Source: Streptomyces sp. ALI-76-A (GTDB lineage: Bacteria > Actinomycetota > Actinomycetes > Streptomycetales > Streptomycetaceae). Taken from it: a stretch of 64,000 nucleotides of DNA. Numbering within the stretch: the first letter of the stretch is position 1; each line of letters opens with the position of its first letter. Positions 36,676 to 47,799 of the stretch are shown here, in pieces. The stretch spans positions 7,316,001 through 7,380,000 of the forward strand of contig NZ_JASVWB010000002.1 in the NCBI RefSeq assembly GCF_030287445.1, written 5' to 3'. A model generated the notes under the pieces. It was given only the letters and a program-made list of their open reading frames with translations, had not been told where the DNA came from and did no database searches. A program made the position numbers and the translations under genes.

Positions 36676-37653
36676 TCAGCCCGCCGCGCGGGCCGCCATC
36701 CGCGCCTTGCGCGCGGCCAGCTTCTCGTCGAACTTCGAGGCCTCGGCGTCCAGGCCGCCCATGTACATGCCGAGCTCCTCCTGCGCCTTGAGACCCTCCG
36801 GACCGAGGCCGTCGATGTCCAGGACCCTCAGGAAGCGCAGCACGGGCTGGAGCACGTCGTCATGGTGGATGCGCATGTTGTAGATCTCGCCGATCGCCAT
36901 CTGCGCGGCGGCCCGCTCGAAGCCGGGCATGCCGTGACCGGGCATCCGGAAGTTCACGATCACGTCGCGCACCGCCTGCATCGTCAGGTCGGGCGCCAGC
37001 TCGAAGGCGGCCTTCAGCAGGTTCCGGTAGAAGACCATGTGCAGGTTCTCGTCGGTCGCGATGCGCGCCAGCATGCGGTCGCAGACCGGGTCCCCGGACT
37101 GGTGGCCGGTGTTGCGGTGCGAGACACGGGTCGCCAGCTCCTGGAAGGCGACGTACGCCACCGAGTGGAGCATCGAGTGGCGGTTGTCCGACTCGAAGCC
37201 CTCGGCCATGTGGGCCATCCGGAACTGCTCCAGCTTGTCCGGGTCCACCGCGCGCGAGGTGAGCAGGTAGTCGCGCATCACGATGCCGTGCCGGCCCTCC
37301 TCCGCGGTCCAGCGGTGCACCCAGGTGCCCCAGGCGCCGTCACGGCCGAACAGCGAGGCGATCTCGTGGTGGTAGCTGGGGAGGTTGTCCTCCGTGAGAA
37401 GGTTGACCACCAGCGCGATCCGGCCGATCTCGGTGACCTTGGACTGCTCCTTCTCCCACGCCTGGCCGTCCTCGAAGAGGCCGGGGAAGTTGCGGCCGTC
37501 ACTGAACGGCACGTACTCGTGCGGCATCCAGTCCTTGGCGACCTTCAGGTGCCGGTTGAGCTCCTGCTCGACCACTTCCTCCAGCGCGTACAGCAGGCGG
37601 GCGTCGGTCCAGGCGGAGGACGGGCTGCCGAGGTGAGGGGAAGTGATCGTCAC
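36676..37653 (-). CDS. Acyl-ACP desaturase (di-iron)
   Basis: A 325-residue soluble stearoyl-ACP-desaturase-like enzyme introducing a double bond into acyl chains. The two iron-binding motifs are EEGRHG (residues about 115-120) and DENLHM (about 200-205). The GTG at 37653 follows GGAG. Three tandem inverted repeats sit upstream at 37717-37762, implying tight repression. Membrane-fluidity control is the likely role. Confidence 0.9.
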   Translation of the reverse strand: MTITSPHLGSPSSAWTDARLLYALEEVVEQELNRHLKVAKDWMPHEYVPFSDGRNFPGLFEDGQAWEKEQSKVTEIGRIALVVNLLTEDNLPSYHHEIASLFGRDGAWGTWVHRWTAEEGRHGIVMRDYLLTSRAVDPDKLEQFRMAHMAEGFESDNRHSMLHSVAYVAFQELATRVSHRNTGHQSGDPVCDRMLARIATDENLHMVFYRNLLKAAFELAPDLTMQAVRDVIVNFRMPGHGMPGFERAAAQMAIGEIYNMRIHHDDVLQPVLRFLRVLDIDGLGPEGLKAQEELGMYMGGLDAEASKFDEKLAARKARMAARAAG

Positions 37654-38869: not shown

Positions 38870-39811
38870 CTAGACCGTCCCGGCCCGCAGGTGGTCGCGC
38901 AGGCGGCGGGCGACCTGGCCCATGAGGGCCTCGGCGTCGGGCTGGCTGCCCGCGGCCACCTGCGACTCGGTCAGGGCGGCGACGGCGTAGGTCCGGCCGT
39001 CGGCGTGTTCGACGACGCCGACCTCGTGGCGCAGATTGAGCAGGGTGCCGGTCTTGGACGACCAGGTGGAGGCGTCGGAGGTGAAGTCCGGGGCGAGGCG
39101 GTGGCGCAGCAGGTTGTCGGCCAGGAGGCCGCGCAGGCGGGCGGCGATGTCGGGGTGGATCGCCGGGGCCCCGGCACCCGGAGTACGGGCCCGGGGCCGC
39201 CAGAGCGCCTGGAGGAGGTCGACGAAGGCGCGTGCCGTGCCGGTGTTGGCGCGCGAGGTGTCCAGCTGCGGCAGCCGGTGGCCGCGCCCCGGTGTGCCGG
39301 ACTCGATCGCGAGGGCGTGGGCGAGGTGCACCTCCGCCGGGTCGAAACGCTCCACCGGCGTTTCGGTCAGTTCGTGCATGGTGTGCCGTACGGAGATGCC
39401 CCGCAGTCCGAACGCGTGCACGGTCGCCGCGACCTGGTCGGGCGGGGTGAGTGCGAAGAGGGCGTCGGCGGCGACGCTGTCGCTGACGCAGACGCTGAGG
39501 TAGAGCAGGTCGTCGACGGCGATCCGGGCGCTGTGGCGGAACCGGCTCAGGCCGGTCGGCCCCGGGGTGGTGATCCGCCCGGGTGTCACCTCGATCGTCG
39601 CGGCGCCGTCGAGTTCTCCGCGCCGGATGCGTTCCAGTGTCGCCAGCGCGAGCGGGACCTTGGTGAGGGACGCGACCGGGAACTCTATGTCGGGTTCGAT
39701 GCCGATCTCCTCGCCGGTGTCCAGGTCACGGACCAGGAACGAGCCGCCCAGCCCGCCCTCGCGCAACGTCCGGCGCAGCTGCCCGAGCAGTCTCTCGGTG
39801 TTCGTGTTCAC
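38870..39811 (-). CDS. blaB: Serine beta-lactamase-like regulatory protein
   Basis: A 313-residue protein with the class A beta-lactamase fold but no signal peptide. The SxxK motif is S48-L-T-K51, the second motif reads SDS rather than SDN, and SSKTGT is present near residue 265. In S. cacaoi, blaA (LysR type) and blaB (a penicillin-recognising-like protein) control beta-lactamase production, and the order here matches. The GTG at 39811 overlaps the blaA stop (GTGA). The name rests on this arrangement and on recalled literature. Confidence 0.75.
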   Translation of the reverse strand: MNTNTERLLGQLRRTLREGGLGGSFLVRDLDTGEEIGIEPDIEFPVASLTKVPLALATLERIRRGELDGAATIEVTPGRITTPGPTGLSRFRHSARIAVDDLLYLSVCVSDSVAADALFALTPPDQVAATVHAFGLRGISVRHTMHELTETPVERFDPAEVHLAHALAIESGTPGRGHRLPQLDTSRANTGTARAFVDLLQALWRPRARTPGAGAPAIHPDIAARLRGLLADNLLRHRLAPDFTSDASTWSSKTGTLLNLRHEVGVVEHADGRTYAVAALTESQVAAGSQPDAEALMGQVARRLRDHLRAGTV

Positions 39812-40785
39812 AAGGACTCCTCCGGGGACCGCCTGGACTGAGAGGACGCCGTGGCTCGCGTGAGCTGTGTGGCACGCGCGGAACGCGGGGACGGCGGGGG
39901 TTGTGTGGCGCCCAGGCACCGGGCGACGGCGTCCGCGCACGTCCGGCCCGTGCGGGCGGCGTCGGTGTCCGTCTCGTCGGCCACGGCCAGGGCGTACCCC
40001 CGTGCGAAGCCGGGGCCGAGCTCGCCGACGGGCCGCCAGTGCAGGCCCAGCTCCCGGGCCTGCGCCGGCGAGCACAGCAGGGTGTCGTCCCGGCTCAGCA
40101 CGTCCGCCGCGGCGGCCGCCACGGTCCGGGTCACGGCCAGCTGCGCCGGGCGCAGCCCGACGGCGTCGCGCAGACGGGCCAGACGGTCCCGGACGTGCGG
40201 CACGTCGTCCTCCGGCTGGAGCCACACGCGGCGCGGTCGCCGCGCGCGTCCGGCCCGGCCTGGGCGCAGGACGTCCAGGTAGACCGCCGAGCCGCCCGGG
40301 TCGTCCGCGAGCGCCAGTCCCAGCGGCACCGTCCAGGCCGCCTCGCGGGGCGGTACCGCCAGCAGGGCCGCGCGCACCTGCCGGGAGGTCAGCAGGTCAG
40401 CGCGCTCCGCGGGGCCGGCGGGGCGCGGGTCGAGGAGGATCCCGTGGTCGTGCGCCGCCGCGATGAGGTGGGCGAGGGCGCCCGTGGGGCAGATGGCCGG
40501 GACGGCGATGCGCAGCGGTCGGTGCCGCGCGGTCTCCGCCTCGTGGTCGAGCCGGTCGGCCAGCCGCACCAACTGCTGGGCCAGCGGCAGCATGTCCCGG
40601 CCGAACGGGGTCAGGGTCACCGCACGCGCGGACCGCTCCAGCAGACGCTCGCCCAGGCGTTGTTCGAGCGCGGCGACGCGGCGGCTCACGACCGACTGGG
40701 CCGTCCGGGCCGCCGCCGCGCCCACCGTGAAACTGCCGTGCTCGCTCACGCTGACGAACGCACGGCAGGCCGCTACAAGATCCAC
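39808..40785 (-). CDS. blaA: LysR-family regulator of the beta-lactamase gene
   Basis: A 325-residue LysR-type regulator. The winged helix is at residues 1-60 ([44 protein letters not shown]). It begins with GTG at 40785 and is divergent from the beta-lactamase gene, sharing a 136-base promoter region, the usual arrangement for an activator and its target. It is coupled to the downstream blaB-like gene. Confidence 0.82.
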
Positions 40786-40921
40786 GGGGCCACTATGCCA
40801 AAACAGCATGGGAGCGCGTCCACGCGTCTTGGACACCGGTGCCCGTCCGGCCCGAGGGTGGCCGGACAAGCACGTCGACGCTTCGACACGTCGGCACTTC
40901 GAGGTCCTGGAGGTCCCATCC

Positions 40922-41872
40922 ATGACGTACCCGCATCGCATGCGCCGCGGCGCCGCCTGGGCGGCCGGGTTGCTCGCCCTCGTCGCGCTCCCGGCATGCG
41001 GCCAGGAGACCGGGTCCGCGTCCGGTTCCGCCGTGGGCTCCCCGCGGTCGACGGCCGCCTCCGCGGCGGCCCCGGGAGCCACCGCGGGCGCGTTCCGGCG
41101 GTTGGAGCGCGAGTTCGACGCGCGGCTCGGTGTGTACGCCCTGGACACCGGTACCGGCCGGACGGTCGCCTACCAGGCGGACGAACGGTTCGCGTACGCC
41201 TCGACCTTCAAGGCGCTCGCGGTGGGAGCCGTGCTTCAGCGGCGTGGCCTGGAGGGGCTCGACAAGGTGGTCACCTTCTCGCGCGAGGACGTGGTCGCCA
41301 ACTCGCCCGTGACCGAGAACTTCGTCGAGACCGGGATGAGCCTGCGCGAACTGTGCGCCGCCACCCTCTGGTACAGCGACAACACGGCGGCCAACCTGCT
41401 CTTCGACGAGCTCGGCGGCCCCGACGGCCTGGAGAAGGCCCTGGAACGACTCGGCGACGACGTCACCGAGATGGACCGGTACGAGCCGGAGCTCAGCGAC
41501 GGCACGCCGGGCGACATCCGTGACACGAGCACGCCCCGCGCGTTGGCGGGGAGCCTGCGGGCGTTCCTGCTCGGCAAGGCCCTGGACAGGGAGGAGCGCG
41601 CTCTGCTCAGGACGTGGATGAAGACGAACACCACCGGCGAGACGCTCATCATGGCCGGCCTCCCGGACGACTGGACCGTGGCCGACAAGAGCGGCACCGC
41701 CGGGTACGGCGGACGCAACGACATCGCCGTGGTGTGGCCGGACGACGGCGCCGATCCCATCGTGCTGGCGGTCCTGTCCAGCCGGGACGAGCAGGACGCC
41801 GAACGCCGCGACGCACTGATCGCCGAGGCGGCCACCGTGGCGGTGGACGGCCTGGGCGGCCGGGGAGCGTAG
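40922..41872 (+). CDS. bla: Class A beta-lactamase, lipoprotein
   Basis: A 316-residue enzyme that hydrolyses beta-lactam rings outside the cell. The lipobox ends at Cys26 (VALPAC), followed by a Ser/Ala-rich linker. The active site has S94-T-F-K97, YSDNT, the omega-loop Glu in EPELSD, and DKSGTAGYG (K-S-G). The ATG at 40922 follows GGAGG. It is divergent from blaA. Confidence 0.92.
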
Positions 41873-42079: not shown

Positions 42080-44389
42080 TCACCGCCCTGTGACGACCTC
42101 CACCTCCACCTCCGTTCCTTCCGTCTCCGCTCCCTCCGCCGTCACCCGTCGAAGGTGCTCCCCGGTGAACGAGCCCTCAGCGTCGAGAAGTTGACGGGGT
42201 GTGCCCTCGAAGACGAGCCGGCCGCCGTCCCGGCCGCCGCCCGGCCCGAGGTCGACGATCCAGTCGGCGTGCGCCACGACGTCCAGGTTGTGCTCGACGA
42301 CCACGACCGTGTTGCCCGTGTCGACCAGCCGGTCCAGCAGCGCGAGCAGCCCGTCGACGTCGGACATGTGCAGTCCGGTCGTCGGTTCGTCCAGGACGTA
42401 CACCGCCCCGGTCCGGTGCAGCCGCGTCGCCAGCTTGATGCGCTGGCGTTCGCCGCCGGAGAGCGTGGACAGCGGCTGCCCCAGCGTGAGGTAGGCGAGG
42501 CCGACGTCGGCCAGCGCGCGCAGCCGGCGCCGTACGCCCGGGTCGTCGAAGAAGCCGAGTGCCTCGCCGGCCGTCATCTCCAGGACGTCCGCGACGGACC
42601 GGCCGTCGACGGTCAGCCGCAGCACCTCGTCCTTGAAGCGCCGCCCCTCGCAGTCGTGGCAGGTCGTCGTCACCGGGTCCATGAACGCCAGGTCGGTGTA
42701 AAGGATGCCGCGCCCCTCGCAGGTCCCGCACGCCCCGGCCGAGTTGAAGCTGAAGAGCCCCGGTCCGGTCCCCGTCTCCCGGGCGAAGATCTTCCGGACC
42801 GTGTCCATGATCCCGACGTAGGTCGCCGGTGTGGACCGCCCGGAGATCCCGATCGACGACTGGTCGACGACCACGGCGTCGGGGTGGGCGGCGGTCAGCT
42901 CCGCGGCCAGTGTGCTCTTCCCGGACCCGGCGACCCCGGTGACCACGGTCAGCACGCCGGTCGGGAACTCCACGGTCAGGTCCCGCAGATTGTGCCGGCC
43001 GGCGCCCTTCACCCACAGCCCGCCGGTGGCTCGCCGCACCTCCTCCTTGACCCGCGTACGGCGGCGCAGGCAGCGCCCGGTCGGGGTGTCCGACCCGGCC
43101 AGCTCGGCCGGCGTCCCCTCGAACACCACCCGTCCGCCGTCGGCTCCGGCGCCCGGCCCCATGTCGACGACGTGGTCGGCGAGCGCGATGACGTCCGGGT
43201 CGTGCTCGACGACCAGCACGGTGTTCCCCTTGTCGCGCAGCCGCAGCAACAGGTCGCCGAGCCGTCCGACGTCCCGCGGGTGCAGACCCACACTGGGTTC
43301 GTCGAAGATGTACGTCATCCCGGTCAGGCTGGAGCCGAGGTGCCGCACGGTCTTCAGCCGCTGTCCCTCGCCGCCGGAGAGCGTGGCGGTCTCCCGGTCG
43401 AGGCTGAGGTAACCGAGACCGATCGCGTCGATGCGTTCGAGGGCGGTGATCGCGGCCCGGGCGACGGGCGTGGCGACCGGGTCGTCGATCTCCCTCAGCA
43501 CGCCGATCAGGTCACTGACCTGCATCCGGGCGCAGTCGGCGATGGTGCGGCCGTTGATCCGGGTGGCGAGCGCCGCCCGGTTGAGCCGGGCGCCGGCGCA
43601 GGCGGGGCAGGTGCCCTCGGTCAGGAACTCCCGTACGAGGTCGCGGGTCTTCTGGCTCATGCCGGACAGGTCGCGCTTCAGGTACAGCCGCTCGAACCGG
43701 TCGGCGAGCCCCTCGTACTCGGTGGTCCAGGTGCCGCCGCTGCCGTTGACGGTGACCTTGCTGCCGGGGCGGCCGTGCATCAGGAACTCCCGCTCGGCGG
43801 CGGTGAACGCGCCGACCGGCTTGTGCGGGTCCAGGTCGTCGGAGTTCGTGTACGCCTGCCCCTGCCAGGTCCCCGCCGCGAACGGCGGGAAGCGCACCGC
43901 CCCGTCGGCCAGTGACCGCTCCGGGTCCAGGATGCGGTCCCAGTCCGGCCGCACCACCCGCCCGAGCCCGTCGCAGTCGGGGCACATGCCCGCCGGGTCG
44001 TTGAACGAGTACGCCGTCGCCGGTCCGGCGCTCGGGGTGCCGTGCCGGGAGAACAGCACGCGGATCACCGAGTAGACGTCGGTCATCGTGCCGACGGTGG
44101 AGCGGGAGTGGCCCCCGATCTGCCGCTGGTCGACCACGATGGCGGGGGTGAGGTCCTCCAGCGTGTCGGCGTGCGGCCGCTCGTACTTGGGCAGCCGGTT
44201 GCGCACGAACCAGGTGAACGTCTCGTTCAGCTGGCGCTGCGACTCGACCGCGATCGTGTCGAAGACGACGGACGACTTCCCCGATCCCGAAACGCCGGTG
44301 AACACGGTCAGCCGGCCCTTCGGGATGCGGAGCGTGACGTCCTCGAGGTTGTTCTGCCGGGCTCCGGTGAGGGTGATGAAATCGGACAT
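42080..44389 (-). CDS. UvrA-like ATPase (drug-resistance/UvrA2 type)
   Basis: A 769-residue double ATPase. The two nucleotide-binding domains have GVSGSGKSS with LSGGEGQR and GVAGSGKST with LSGGERQR. Zinc-finger-like CxxC pairs are [17 protein letters not shown] and [16 protein letters not shown]. At about 770 residues it is shorter than true UvrA (about 950) and lacks the UvrB-binding region, as in DrrC-like proteins linked to resistance to DNA-binding drugs. It adjoins an ABC-F gene, making a pair of resistance-type ATPases. Confidence 0.88.
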
Positions 44390-44399
44390 GCACCCGACG

Positions 44400-46025
44400 C
44401 TAGAAGGGATACCCGACAGCTTCTGACGTGATTTCCCTCAGTTCTCCGTTCTCCAGCAGCAGCCACCGGGTGATGCCGACCGACTCCAGGAACGGCAGGT
44501 CGTGGCTGGCCACGATCAGCGCCCCCTCGTACGACTCCAGGGCGGTCGTGAGCTGCCGCACGCTCGCCATGTCCAGGTTGTTCGTCGGCTCGTCCAGCAT
44601 CAGCAGCTGGGGCGCGGGCTCCGCCAGCATCAGCGCGGCGAGGGTCGCCCGGAAGCGTTCGCCGCCCGACAGGGTGGCCGCCTTCTGGTCCGCGCGGGCG
44701 CCCCGGAACAGGAAGCGGGCGAGCCGGGCCCGGATCCGGTTGCGGGTGGCGTCCGGCGCGAACCGGGCCACGTTCTCGGCGACGGTCAGCTCGCCGTCGA
44801 GCACGTCCAGCCGCTGCGGCAGGAAGCGGAGCGGGACGTGGGCCCGCACGTCGCCGGACAGCGGCTCCAGCTCCCCGGCGACCGTCCGCAGCAGCGTCGT
44901 CTTGCCCGCGCCGTTGCGCCCGACCAGGGCGATCCGCTCCGGACCGTGCAGCTCGAAACCTCCCTCCACCCGTGCCCCGTGGGCCAGGTGCACATCCTGG
45001 AGGGTGAGGACGGTACGGCCCTGGGGTACGGCCGTGTACGGCAGGTCGACGCGGATCTCGTCGTCGTCCCGCACGGCCTCGGCCGCCTCGTCGAGCCGTT
45101 CCCTCGCCTCGGCGAGCTTCTCCTCGTGCATGATGCGGTGCTTGCCCGCGGACTCCTGCGCCGCGCGCTTGCGGGCCCCCATGACGATCTTCGGCTCGCG
45201 CTTCTGGTCCCACATCTTCTGTCCGTACCGCCTGCGTCGGGCCAACTTGACCTGCGCGTCGACCAGTTCACGCTTCTGCTTCTTGAGATCGGCCTCGGCG
45301 ACGCGCACCATCCGTTCCGCGGCCTCCTGTTCGGTGGCGAGCGCGTCCTCGTACGCCGAGAGGTTGCCGCCGTACCAGGTGATCCCGCCGGAGCGCAGAT
45401 CGGCGATCTGGTCGACCAGGTCGAGCAGTTCGCGGTCGTGGCTGACCACGACCATGATCCCCGGCCAGGCCGCGACGGCCGCGTAGAGCCGCCTGCGCGC
45501 GTACAGGTCGAGGTTGTTGGTGGGCTCGTCGAGCAGCAGCACGTCCGGCCGGCGCAGCAGCAGCGCGGCCAGCCGCAGCAGCACCGACTCGCCGCCCGAC
45601 ACCTCGCCGATCGTGCGGTCCAGCCCGATGTGGCCGAGCCCGAGTTCGCCGAGGGTGGCGAGGGCCCGCTCCTCCACGTCCCAGTCGTCGCCGACCGTCT
45701 CGAAGTGTTCCTCGGCCACGTCACCGGCCTCGATCGCGTGCAGCGCGGCCCGCCGGGCGGCGATGCCGAGCGCCTCGTCGACCCTCAGGGCGGTGTCGAG
45801 CGTGACGTTCTGCGGGAGGTGACCGACCTCGCCCGCGACGCGCACGGTGCCGTCGGCCGGAGTCAGCCGGCCGGCGATCAGCTTCAGCAGGGTCGACTTC
45901 CCCGACCCGTTGACGCCGACGAGACCGGTGCGGCCCGGACCGAAGGCGACGTCGAGGCCCTCGAAGACGGAGGTGCCGTCGGGCCAGGTGAAGGAGAGGG
46001 ATGTACAGGTGATGGACGCAGACAT
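44400..46025 (-). CDS. ABC-F ATPase, probable ribosome-protecting antibiotic resistance protein
   Basis: A 541-residue soluble protein with two ATPase domains (GVNGSGKST and VSGGESVLLRL; GRNGAGKTT and LSGGERFRATL) joined by a charged interdomain helix (about 235-310, Lys/Arg/Glu-rich). It has no membrane segment, so it is of the ABC-F kind that acts on the ribosome. The ATG at 46025 follows GGAGG. Its 226-base leader has a promoter, a possible three-codon ORF and a hairpin, suggesting antibiotic-induced attenuation. It ends 10 bases before the UvrA-like gene. Confidence 0.88.
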   Translation of the reverse strand: MSASITCTSLSFTWPDGTSVFEGLDVAFGPGRTGLVGVNGSGKSTLLKLIAGRLTPADGTVRVAGEVGHLPQNVTLDTALRVDEALGIAARRAALHAIEAGDVAEEHFETVGDDWDVEERALATLGELGLGHIGLDRTIGEVSGGESVLLRLAALLLRRPDVLLLDEPTNNLDLYARRRLYAAVAAWPGIMVVVSHDRELLDLVDQIADLRSGGITWYGGNLSAYEDALATEQEAAERMVRVAEADLKKQKRELVDAQVKLARRRRYGQKMWDQKREPKIVMGARKRAAQESAGKHRIMHEEKLAEARERLDEAAEAVRDDDEIRVDLPYTAVPQGRTVLTLQDVHLAHGARVEGGFELHGPERIALVGRNGAGKTTLLRTVAGELEPLSGDVRAHVPLRFLPQRLDVLDGELTVAENVARFAPDATRNRIRARLARFLFRGARADQKAATLSGGERFRATLAALMLAEPAPQLLMLDEPTNNLDMASVRQLTTALESYEGALIVASHDLPFLESVGITRWLLLENGELREITSEAVGYPF

Positions 46026-46165
46026 ACGGAAGCCTCCGCGGTTGCTCGGTGCGGGCACGGGCAGACGCGTATCGAGACACCGGCGACCAGGGAGGAGAGG
46101 CCCGGGGGCAGGGAACGGCCCTGTTCCGCGAAGGACGGCTCGAACGCCGAGGTCGCACGCGGCGG

Positions 46166-46184
46166 CACACACCCCAGGTGTGTG
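46166..46184 (-). promoter_or_regulatory. Leader hairpin of the ABC-F gene
   Basis: CACACACC and GGTGTGTG are perfect eight-base arms round a three-base loop, with a further CGCG pairing outside. It lies 18 bases after the possible leader peptide stop and so could be opened or closed by a ribosome stalled there. There is no T-run, so simple intrinsic termination is not certain. Confidence 0.55.
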
Positions 46185-46202
46185 ACGCGGTGTCTCAGAA
46201 CC

Positions 46203-46214
46203 TCAGACGAGCAA
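46203..46214 (-). CDS. Possible three-codon leader peptide (Met-Leu-Val) of the ABC-F gene
   Basis: TTG CTC GTC TGA follows AGGAGAAGGACG, a strong and well-spaced ribosome-binding site that serves no longer supported frame. It is about 30 bases after the predicted transcription start and just upstream of a hairpin. A ribosome held on this short ORF by an antibiotic could alter downstream folding. This is a sequence-based inference. Confidence 0.5.
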   Translation of the reverse strand: MLV

Positions 46215-46250
46215 CGTCCTTCTCCTATCGACGGCAACAGAACCGCCAAC

Positions 46251-46280
46251 ACCGTACGAGCGGCTCTCGACGGCTGTCAA
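46251..46280 (-). promoter_or_regulatory. Promoter of the ABC-F gene
   Basis: TTGACA (46280-46275) and TACGGT (46256-46251) are separated by 18 bases, a good housekeeping-type promoter reading leftwards. The expected start of transcription is near 46244, about 220 bases before the ABC-F ATG. Confidence 0.65.
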
Positions 46281-46323
46281 CGCATTAACGTCGGCCCCGA
46301 TCCCACCCTCCGAAGGAGTCCCC

Positions 46324-46962
46324 GTGCCCCACGGCTCGCTCTCGCTCCCGGCCCGCCTGTGCCTGCTGGCCTGGAACAGTACGGAGACGGAGACCGGCGG
46401 GGCCGGCCGGCTGCCCCCTCTGGTCCGGGCCGGTGCCCTCGTCGAGCTGGCGCAACGCGGCCTGCTCATCGACGACGACGGCATCGCCACCCCCGCCGAC
46501 CTGGACTCCGGCACGGGCGACGCGGTCCTCGACGGACTCCTGGAACTGGTCCGGGAGTCCCGGCCGCACCGGTGGCGGACCTGGGTGACCCTGCGGGCGC
46601 GGATCACGCTGGACGCCGTACGGGAGCAACTGGCCGCCGAAGGTCACCTGCGGGCCGAGAAGAGGCGCGTCCTCGGGGTGTTCCCGACCGTGGAGTACGC
46701 CCTGGACCGCGGCGCCGTCCTGGAGGCGCTGTGCGAGCGGACACGGGAGGCGGTAGGGGGTCCGTTCCCGGTCGCCGAGCTCTCCGAGCGGGACGCGGCC
46801 GTCGCCGCGCTCGCGGACGCCGCCGGGCTGGTGCCGGGCGCCGGGCCCGTACCGGGGCGTCTCGAAGAGCTCACCGAGCGCGGTGGAGCGGCGACCGCCG
46901 TGCTGCGGACGGTCCTCCGGGAGGTGCGGACGACGAGGGTGGCGTCGGCCGTCGCCGACTGA
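46324..46962 (+). CDS. GPP34 (GOLPH3/Vps74-like) family protein
   Basis: A 212-residue protein of the GPP34 family, whose eukaryotic members bind phosphoinositides. Visible features are SLPARLCLLAWN at the start, LVRAGALVELAQRGLL, and the C-terminal RVLGVFPTVEYAL. Streptomyces have several paralogues with unknown roles. GTG at 46324 follows AAGGAG. It is divergent from the ABC-F gene. Confidence 0.82.
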   Translation: MPHGSLSLPARLCLLAWNSTETETGGAGRLPPLVRAGALVELAQRGLLIDDDGIATPADLDSGTGDAVLDGLLELVRESRPHRWRTWVTLRARITLDAVREQLAAEGHLRAEKRRVLGVFPTVEYALDRGAVLEALCERTREAVGGPFPVAELSERDAAVAALADAAGLVPGAGPVPGRLEELTERGGAATAVLRTVLREVRTTRVASAVAD

Positions 46963-47382
46963 ACCTGTCCCGGCGTCCCGGGCCTGGCCGTGGGCGCCGA
47001 CGGATCCTCGTCCCCGGGGCCGTCGAGCCCGGGTGGTGAAGGAGTTCGTCGACGGGAGCGGCGGGCCGTCCCCGCGTGCCGGCCGGTCCGGCGGGCAGCC
47101 GGCCGCCGTGGGGGGGAGCACCTGAGCGTCGGCTCGCGTGTCGCCCATGCCGCGCACGTCCTGGTCCGTCGCGCGGCGCGGGAGCTGTCGGGCGCGGGAA
47201 CCCAGGCGTCACCGACGGACGGACTCGACCCCTGCGGGCAACCCAGGCGTCACCGACGGACGGACTCGACCCCGGCGAGGTCGACGCGCCGCCGAGACGG
47301 TCAGCCCGGTGCCTTCGAGGGACGCCGGCCCGCACGGGTCAGCAGGCGTGCCCGAGGGCTCAGCGGGTGGGACGCGGAACGG
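46963..47382. other. Gene-free interval with a 41-bp-period repeat
   Basis: No supported gene in 420 bases. A 34-base segment beginning AACCCAGGCGTCACC occurs identically at 47199-47232 and 47240-47273. Confidence 0.6.
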
Positions 47383-47799
47383 TCAGCAGGCGTCCCGCAT
47401 CAGCTCCGCCAGGTCGTGGTCCAGGTCCAGGTACACGTGCTCCAGACCGACCGGCACCAGCTCGCCGGTCGCCTCCAGGAACCTCCGCAGCTCGCCCGAG
47501 CGGACGTGCACGACGGCGGTGCCCTCGGGGGCGTGGAACTCCAGGACGGTGCGGTCGTACCCGTACGGCCGCACGCGTACGTCCCCGTGGCCCTGAGGCT
47601 CCTGGAGGCCGGCCGACAGCAGCTCGCGGCTGAAGGTCCAGCAGACCTCCACGCCCTCCAGGGTGGCCGGGGCCGGGAAGGTCATGCGGACGGCGAACGG
47701 GTCGCGCCGGTCGTAGTGCAGCGTGGCGGGGATGCTCGGCATCCGCGGCGCGGCGGCGACGAGACGGGCCTCTACGGGCTGCTCGATGACGATGGACAA
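47383..47799 (-). CDS. ssgD: SsgA-like sporulation/cell-division protein
   Basis: A 138-residue SALP-family protein (PVEARLVAAAPRMPSIPATLHYDRRDPFAVRMTF in overlapping segments; VCWTFSRELL; GDVRVRPYG). These actinomycete proteins control septum formation and wall remodelling during sporulation. The TTG at 47799 is preceded by GGGAG and gives the usual family length; a frame opening at 47919 adds 40 unrelated residues. The symbol ssgD rests on recalled gene order near the laccase and whiB-like genes and is tentative. Confidence 0.78.
   Translation of the reverse strand: MSIVIEQPVEARLVAAAPRMPSIPATLHYDRRDPFAVRMTFPAPATLEGVEVCWTFSRELLSAGLQEPQGHGDVRVRPYGYDRTVLEFHAPEGTAVVHVRSGELRRFLEATGELVPVGLEHVYLDLDHDLAELMRDAC

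Follow-up and report, generated by a model that had tools for sequence, protein, structure and literature searches.

What does an upstream open reading frame (uORF) of three codons, with its own ribosome-binding site (RBS), do in front of an ABC-F gene, and does its peptide matter? The question is raised by a 64,000-nt stretch of DNA from Streptomyces sp. ALI-76-A (hereafter, the window), the minus strand of which carries, in this order, a promoter, a strong RBS, the uORF TTG-CTC-GTC-TGA, a hairpin and the ATG of the ABC-F gene at 46025, with 177 nt between the uORF stop and this ATG. An earlier note on this DNA had proposed antibiotic-sensing, ribosome-mediated attenuation with an unusually short sensor peptide and the hairpin behind it; promoter, RBS, uORF, hairpin and leader length were all recovered where it had placed them. 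The features referred to below are as follows (positions in the window):

46284..46289, minus strand: AT-rich GTTAAT, 3 bp 5' of the -35; candidate WblC/WhiB7 element (GAAAWY), 4 of 6 positions
46280-46275, minus strand: -35, TTGACA (the same hexamer in 76 of 154 scored leaders)
46256-46251, minus strand: -10, TACGGT, spacer 18 nt (the same hexamer in 64 of 154 scored leaders)
46226-46218, minus strand: uORF RBS, AGGAGAAGG; GGAG and GGACGTTG unchanged throughout the alignment of 82 leaders
46214-46203, minus strand: uORF TTG CTC GTC TGA (Met-Leu-Val), are5scL1-type; the ortholog's version is published
46200..46204, minus strand: P1 5' arm GAGGT, overlapping the uORF stop; putative partner of 46149-46153
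46196-46186, minus strand: segment A, GAGACACCGCG, beginning 7 nt past the uORF stop; predicted covarying helix with B
46184-46166, minus strand: hairpin CACACACC-TGG-GGTGTGTG, a variable loop within the P1 domain, differing in length and sequence among relatives
46149..46153, minus strand: P1 3' arm ACCTC; putative partner of GAGGT at 46200-46204
46133..46142, minus strand: P2 3' arm, CGAGCCGTCC; complementary to the uORF RBS and start (46219-46215 and 46212-46208)
46119..46128, minus strand: P0 3' arm, CGGAACAGGG; complementary to 46240-46232, candidate intrinsic terminator
46082-46074, minus strand: segment B, CGGTGTCTC, about 50 nt 5' of the ABC-F start; partner A, or possibly the ABC-F Shine-Dalgarno region
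46033..46037, minus strand: segment C, the ABC-F Shine-Dalgarno sequence GGAGG
44400..46025, minus strand: ABC-F gene, 541 aa from ATG, ortholog of are5sc/SCO6720

The observation as such is already known, since a conserved antibiotic-sensing leader is described in the ortholog. Koberska et al. 2025 (PMC12421871) report on the leader of are5sc (SCO6720) in S. coelicolor, which contains a Met-Leu-Val uORF, are5scL1. According to the text of that paper, the uORF is translated in vitro, lincosamide, streptogramin A and pleuromutilin drugs stall ribosomes at its start codon in toeprint assays, and are5sc leader reporters are induced by antibiotics, the TX reporter responding at the transcript level in S. 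coelicolor. Ribosome-mediated attenuation of the ABC-F gene by a three-codon uORF, as envisaged in the earlier note, thus has a published precedent. The two leaders share the same ABC-F ortholog and the same TTG-initiated Met-Leu-Val uORF with an RBS of its own. The 20-nt are5sc target site given in PMC12421871 is found exactly in the ABC-F genes of two relatives (L084 and L088); the version in the window's gene has 2 mismatches. When up to 3 mismatches were allowed, 101 sites were found among the loci, every one of them within this ABC-F gene. The window thus carries this same element, from another species or strain. In the window, the overlapping second frame of are5sc (MRS/LRS) reads CTG AGG TTC TGA (LRF), and some relatives, for example L012, have a broken version, which is consistent with the lack of translation reported for this frame in PMC12421871; given that report, it was not taken as a defining feature of are5sc-type leaders. 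Judged by titles and abstract openings, no further account of this leader was found in the literature; SCO6720 is mentioned a single time in PMC6637917. What is added here is comparative throughout: a uORF conserved in length while its peptide drifts, the A:B helix, and the spread through the family. These additions are set against the text of PMC12421871, in which folds of the are5sc leader are drawn in supplementary Fig. S4.

The ABC-F protein scored highest among NCBIfam models with NF000355 (antibiotic-resistance ABC-F protein), at 330.1 bits and below the curated cut-off of 380, so that it would count at best as a divergent member of this model. A strong match (E-value at most 1e-150) is present in at least 289 of the 295 sampled genomes of the genus, and the gene was found in 52 of 61 genomes, representing 13 of 17 genera, from the rest of the family (E-values up to 1e-120). 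The best 80 named relatives are all Streptomyces. In the window, a UvrA-like gene (42080-44389, minus strand) starts about 10 nt past the ABC-F gene, perhaps within one operon; in 24 of 80 relatives, the ABC-F gene is likewise followed, at no more than 400 nt, by a UvrA-like gene on the same strand.

The position and consensus of WblC promoters were taken from the account in PMC7157823, and the six bases before the -35 appear to resemble that motif. Positions -9 to -4 hold G (52%), A/T (82%), A/T (95%), A (94%), A/T (97%) and C/T (83%) in the 154 of 180 leaders that entered the promoter tally; in the other 26, no -35 was scored by the script. A strict scan of the window for a sigma-70 promoter at this site returned none. 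Transcription is expected to start at about 46244, and the predicted 5' untranslated region of about 219 nt compares with the 232 bp published for are5sc.

In total, 187 ABC-F loci with a tblastn anchor were collected, of which L001, a duplicate of the window, was dropped and L082, the window's gene, was kept, leaving 186. The first 88 of the loci comprised 87 relatives and the window's own gene, which has two ids and was counted once. Distant leaders were sampled from the remaining genera of the family (leaving out ABC-F copies of about 54% identity), from 50 of the 84 genus genomes without the strict pattern, and from 40 further upstream stretches; 30 loci of these 50 genomes and 20 further stretches yielded leaders. 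Scoring was automatic for 180 of the 186 loci and by eye for six, in which the uORF reads TTGCTGATCTGA (L147), TTGCTCTACTGA (L149, L151, L153) or TTG CTC CTG TAA (L159), the sixth being L128.

This comparison revealed that the length of the uORF is kept and its peptide is not. The sequence TTGCTCGTCTGA is present in 85 of the first 88 loci, the variants being L038, L072 and L075. A start codon, exactly two sense codons and a stop codon were found in 180 of the 186 loci, the window included, and in all 39 other-genus loci examined (20 + 19). The exceptions are five leaders with three sense codons (encoding MLHI) and L128, where the stop is displaced and the usual place has no in-frame stop. Among the 180 automatically scored leaders, the start codon is TTG in 179 and GTG in one, the stop codon is TGA in every case (the by-eye locus L159 uses TAA), and 20 peptides occur: MLV (115), MRI (27), MLY (6), MLF (5), MLHI (5), and others including MKV, MSI, MEG and MAG. 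The brevity noticed in the earlier note is thus a kept character, whereas the role of a sensor that it had assigned to the peptide finds no support in 20 versions. The lack of conservation that it had named beforehand as refuting evidence was not seen in the loci compared, in which the short frame is kept.

The RBS and uORF pattern, with at most 1 mismatch allowed, was found in at least 207 of 291 genomes of the genus, while the reversed control pattern had no match among those listed for these genomes. A relaxed pattern was present in 15 of 197 genomes of a class-level sample, that is, in 15 of 16 from the own genus and in none of 181 from other families; the family was represented in this sample by the own genus alone, and weaker relatives could escape the relaxed pattern. 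Downstream of these 15 uORFs, an ABC-F gene of this group was found in 14. The fifteenth locus (L202, G192:C18) has the uORF TTG CTT CAC TGA before a decayed copy, with close matches to the C-terminal part of the gene only.

The next question is what RNA structure the ribosome on the uORF might control. The fold energy of 46260-46026 is ordinary (z of -1.07 against its own shuffles), and, together with the null scans of the window, this means that the function is not proven from the window alone and that the case rests on comparison. RNAalifold analysis of 82 Streptomyces leaders (alignment A1, 82 of the 88 leaders, with L060, L068, L074, L076, L080 and L081 left out) gave double changes in 2 of 34 pairs, and, as the divergence among these leaders is too small, other genera were brought in. 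In the enlarged set, segment A, just past the uORF stop, is predicted to pair with segment B, near the ABC-F start, in a helix that covaries across genera. The arms of the standard leader are GAGACACCGCG (A) and (CG)CGGTGTCTC (B), and they change together in L113 (GCGATCACCGCG with CGCGGTGCTCGC), L110 (GGAGACCCGC with GCGGGTCTCC) and L134 (CGGCACCG with CGGTGCCG). When the arms were located from motifs, without regard to complementarity, which was feasible for 158 of 180 leaders (6 had no CAYC after the stop and 16 no GGTG downstream), 676 of 790 cells at offsets 4-8 were paired, compared to 437 in the best slid control. Each of these offsets exceeded all 1000 shuffles and showed two or more Watson-Crick types; offset 9, past the helix end, did not exceed all of the shuffles. 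Covariation was also seen when the register was chosen by complementarity.

The signal was examined further with relatedness taken into account. When the set was cut to 22 sequences differing in A, 85 of 110 cells were paired versus at most 61 in slid controls, with only one of the five offsets topping all shuffles. In an exchange of partners among 17 clusters, none of 5000 permutations reached the sum of 414 obtained with the own partners (best permutation, 412), and 6 of the 17 cluster representatives did no better with their own partner. A swap test with B given (11 clusters) yielded a median P of 0 for A:B, and the A:C control showed nothing (median P, 0.86). No clear A:B helix was seen in the MLHI clade, L106, L107, L125 and some other leaders. 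In the MLHI clade (L127, L129, L133, L135 and L137), with its three sense codons, uORF length and helix have changed together; L106 and L125 have short leaders, with the uORF at 66 and 110 nt from the start of the gene, respectively; the uORF is kept in them and the helix is unconvincing. In L128, the stretch between A and B is gone and the arms are kept as a local hairpin.

Another conserved alternative helix downstream of the uORF, P1, accompanies the covarying A:B. An exact 5-nt complement for P1 is present in 138 of 151 leaders as against 19 of 151 after shuffling, and its arms change in concert in L159, the leader with the TAA stop; its swap test gave a median P of only 0.063. Because P1 and A:B interleave, they could exist together only as a pseudoknot. 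The hairpin at 46184-46166 is unlikely to be the switch itself, and the role that the earlier note had given it was rejected, as it varies in length and sequence among relatives. Two other candidates were dropped: a pairing of the uORF with GAGCAAC 5' of the Shine-Dalgarno sequence (P4, seen by eye), since the uORF of L075 is changed with no compensating change, and a small hairpin within the uORF proposed by RNAalifold, which, read by eye, is not kept in variants such as TTGCTCTACTGA.

Partition-function models were used for the competition among these segments, with an assumed ribosome footprint of -15 to +16 around the P-site codon. The fold tests covered the 151 of 180 leaders with a motif-like B and a located Shine-Dalgarno sequence, a selection that favors leaders with A:B. 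In the model, the P1 5' arm is covered and A stays accessible when the ribosome is on the uORF start codon, and the front of A is covered when it is at the stop. The mean A:B probability was 0.57 with the ribosome on the start codon, 0.05 with the ribosome at the stop and 0.09 with no ribosome, and it was higher at the start than at the stop in 126 of the 151 leaders and lower in 5. For the window, the modelled values were 0.85, 0.00005 and 0.0007, respectively.

Pairing of B with the Shine-Dalgarno region across the family is plausible. When the stretch from B to the gene start was folded, 113 of 151 leaders had at least three Shine-Dalgarno nucleotides in pairs with B, compared to 63 of 151 with B shuffled, and the Shine-Dalgarno side is altered along with B in the L113 clade. 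The swap test for this pairing was not significant (median P, 0.15), so that general covariation is unsupported. Over the 151 leaders, mean Shine-Dalgarno pairing with B and the next 22 nt was 0.26 with the ribosome on the start codon, 0.50 at the stop and 0.48 with no ribosome. Total Shine-Dalgarno pairing fell from 0.88 (stop) to 0.81 (start), being lower in 90 leaders and higher in 19, and in the window from 0.99 to 0.80; since this drop is small, equilibrium models alone show no clean release. Pairing with B and the next 22 nt had a probability of 0.05 in the tail of the window alone, and in a slightly longer tail the Shine-Dalgarno sequence was placed in a local hairpin instead. In the full model of the window, the values were 0.0009 with no ribosome, 0.004 at the stop and 0.62 on the start codon. 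These figures are the reverse of a simple release and speak against it, and the window is a poor example in this respect.

Based on these results, the leader is an are5sc-type attenuator in which, probably, a ribosome stalled on the uORF start codon lets A:B form and thereby frees the ABC-F Shine-Dalgarno sequence, the peptide being irrelevant. A ribosome would initiate on the three-codon uORF immediately after its transcription. With no drug present, it would finish, and either leave or sit at the stop and cover the front of A, or P1 would lock A away; B, left free, would pair with the Shine-Dalgarno region, and expression of the gene would stay low. Blockers of the first peptide bond (lincosamides, streptogramin A and pleuromutilins) would hold the ribosome on TTG, where it would cover the P1 5' arm and not A, so that A could pair with B and the Shine-Dalgarno region would be released. 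The uORF would then act as a tripwire of fixed length at the start codon, its peptide content being immaterial. For the ortholog, stalling and induction were demonstrated by others; the present comparison contributes the conserved uORF length, despite a changing peptide, and the A:B covariation; the competition between A:B and Shine-Dalgarno pairing and the geometry of the ribosome are inferred.

Three other explanations concern the uORF and the promoter. Joint sensing of the Met-Leu-Val peptide and the drug, in the manner of an ErmCL-type arrest, would agree with this peptide being the commonest, but a kept length with a drifting peptide is predicted by start-codon stalling and not by peptide sensing, peptides such as MKV, MSI, MEG and MAG are among the 20 found, and the stalling described in PMC12421871 occurs at the start codon, before any peptide is made; this explanation is very improbable. 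Just as little credence is given to an untranslated uORF, the conserved nucleotides of which would serve RNA structure or protein binding only. Its DNA is indeed identical in 85 of 88 loci, none of the three variants is synonymous, and the RBS and start are complementary to 46142-46133; however, the length of the frame survives nucleotide changes at codons 2 and 3, L159 still has a two-sense-codon frame with its stop changed to TAA, and the ortholog's uORF is translated in vitro according to PMC12421871. The WblC-like element stands at the reported place, as would be expected if a WblC-type promoter alone gave the antibiotic response and the leader were incidental. This is nevertheless highly unlikely, because the leader is conserved in sequence, length and covariation, and because, in PMC12421871, the are5sc promoter-only fusion is constitutively active with no antibiotic, whereas the leader-bearing constructs respond.

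More weight is due to the published model, a purely transcriptional attenuator in which the stalled ribosome would prevent a premature terminator, perhaps formed by P0/P2 and a U-rich tract, A:B being then a fold of the read-through RNA. The antibiotic-induced transcriptional are5sc fusion in S. coelicolor (PMC12421871) favors a terminator, and the terminator of lmrC is backed by mutation and RT-PCR in PMC8546547; P0 and P2 complementarities are present in the window, and many Streptomyces leaders are T-rich after P0. However, in the published fusion the reporter RBS comes after a retained third of the coding sequence (PMC12421871), so polarity from lost translation could also contribute to a reduced reporter transcript. 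A strict scan for a U-tailed terminator in the leader of the window returned none, and this leader lacks a clear T run after P0. The P0 5' arm is found in 91 of 106 main-cluster leaders and 6 of 45 others, a crude U-tract pattern after P0 in 51 of 106 and 7 of 45, and L004 has no tract region altogether. Moreover, B is made after the tract, which leaves A:B covariation across genera unexplained by this model, and a purely transcriptional attenuator is on balance doubted, though a credible possibility. An intrinsic terminator (P0/P2 with the U-rich tract) may add transcriptional control in part of Streptomyces, and it is likelier that the translational three-segment switch is the core and the terminator an addition. 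The wider proposal of a family-wide, peptide-free uORF switch, with Shine-Dalgarno release (A:B versus B:Shine-Dalgarno) as the ancestral output and intrinsic termination gained later in part of Streptomyces, is put forward tentatively, as somewhat short of probable.

In translational attenuation of the ermC type, the helices are mutually exclusive and a stalled ribosome frees the Shine-Dalgarno sequence; the drug-bound ribosome is arrested there by a specific peptide, whereas in the are5sc type it stalls on the start codon. The lmrC attenuator of S. lincolnensis, as described in PMC8546547, resembles the present leader in its ARE5-subfamily ABC-F gene, the same inducing drugs and a uORF in a long leader, but is transcriptional, and its uORF2 overlaps the terminator and is required to form it. 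The ABC-F gene vmlR of B. subtilis is similar by its description in PMC9226507 (transcription and translation attenuation with pleuromutilin, lincosamide and streptogramin A), although it belongs to another phylum.

The ABC-F gene that follows this leader has a strong match in nearly every genome sampled from the genus, so the leader may be the means by which most of these bacteria sense blockers of the peptidyl transferase center. If the length-only reading is true, the uORF would be a clear example from nature of a regulatory frame under selection for the position of the ribosome and not for its product, and frames of this kind readily escape searches based on peptide conservation. With the A:B helix, there is a testable alternative to the published terminator model.

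Elsewhere in the window, the frames 40463-41872 (plus strand) and 38870-40225 (minus strand) have translations that, by eye, resemble class A beta-lactamases. The sole Rfam match of the window at the gathering threshold is RF01781 (ASdes TB sRNA) at 37232-37299 on the plus strand (65.9 bits). A tandem pair of 41-nt repeats, 95% identical, occupies 47196-47277, between a frame ending near 46962 and an opposite-strand frame ending near 47383.
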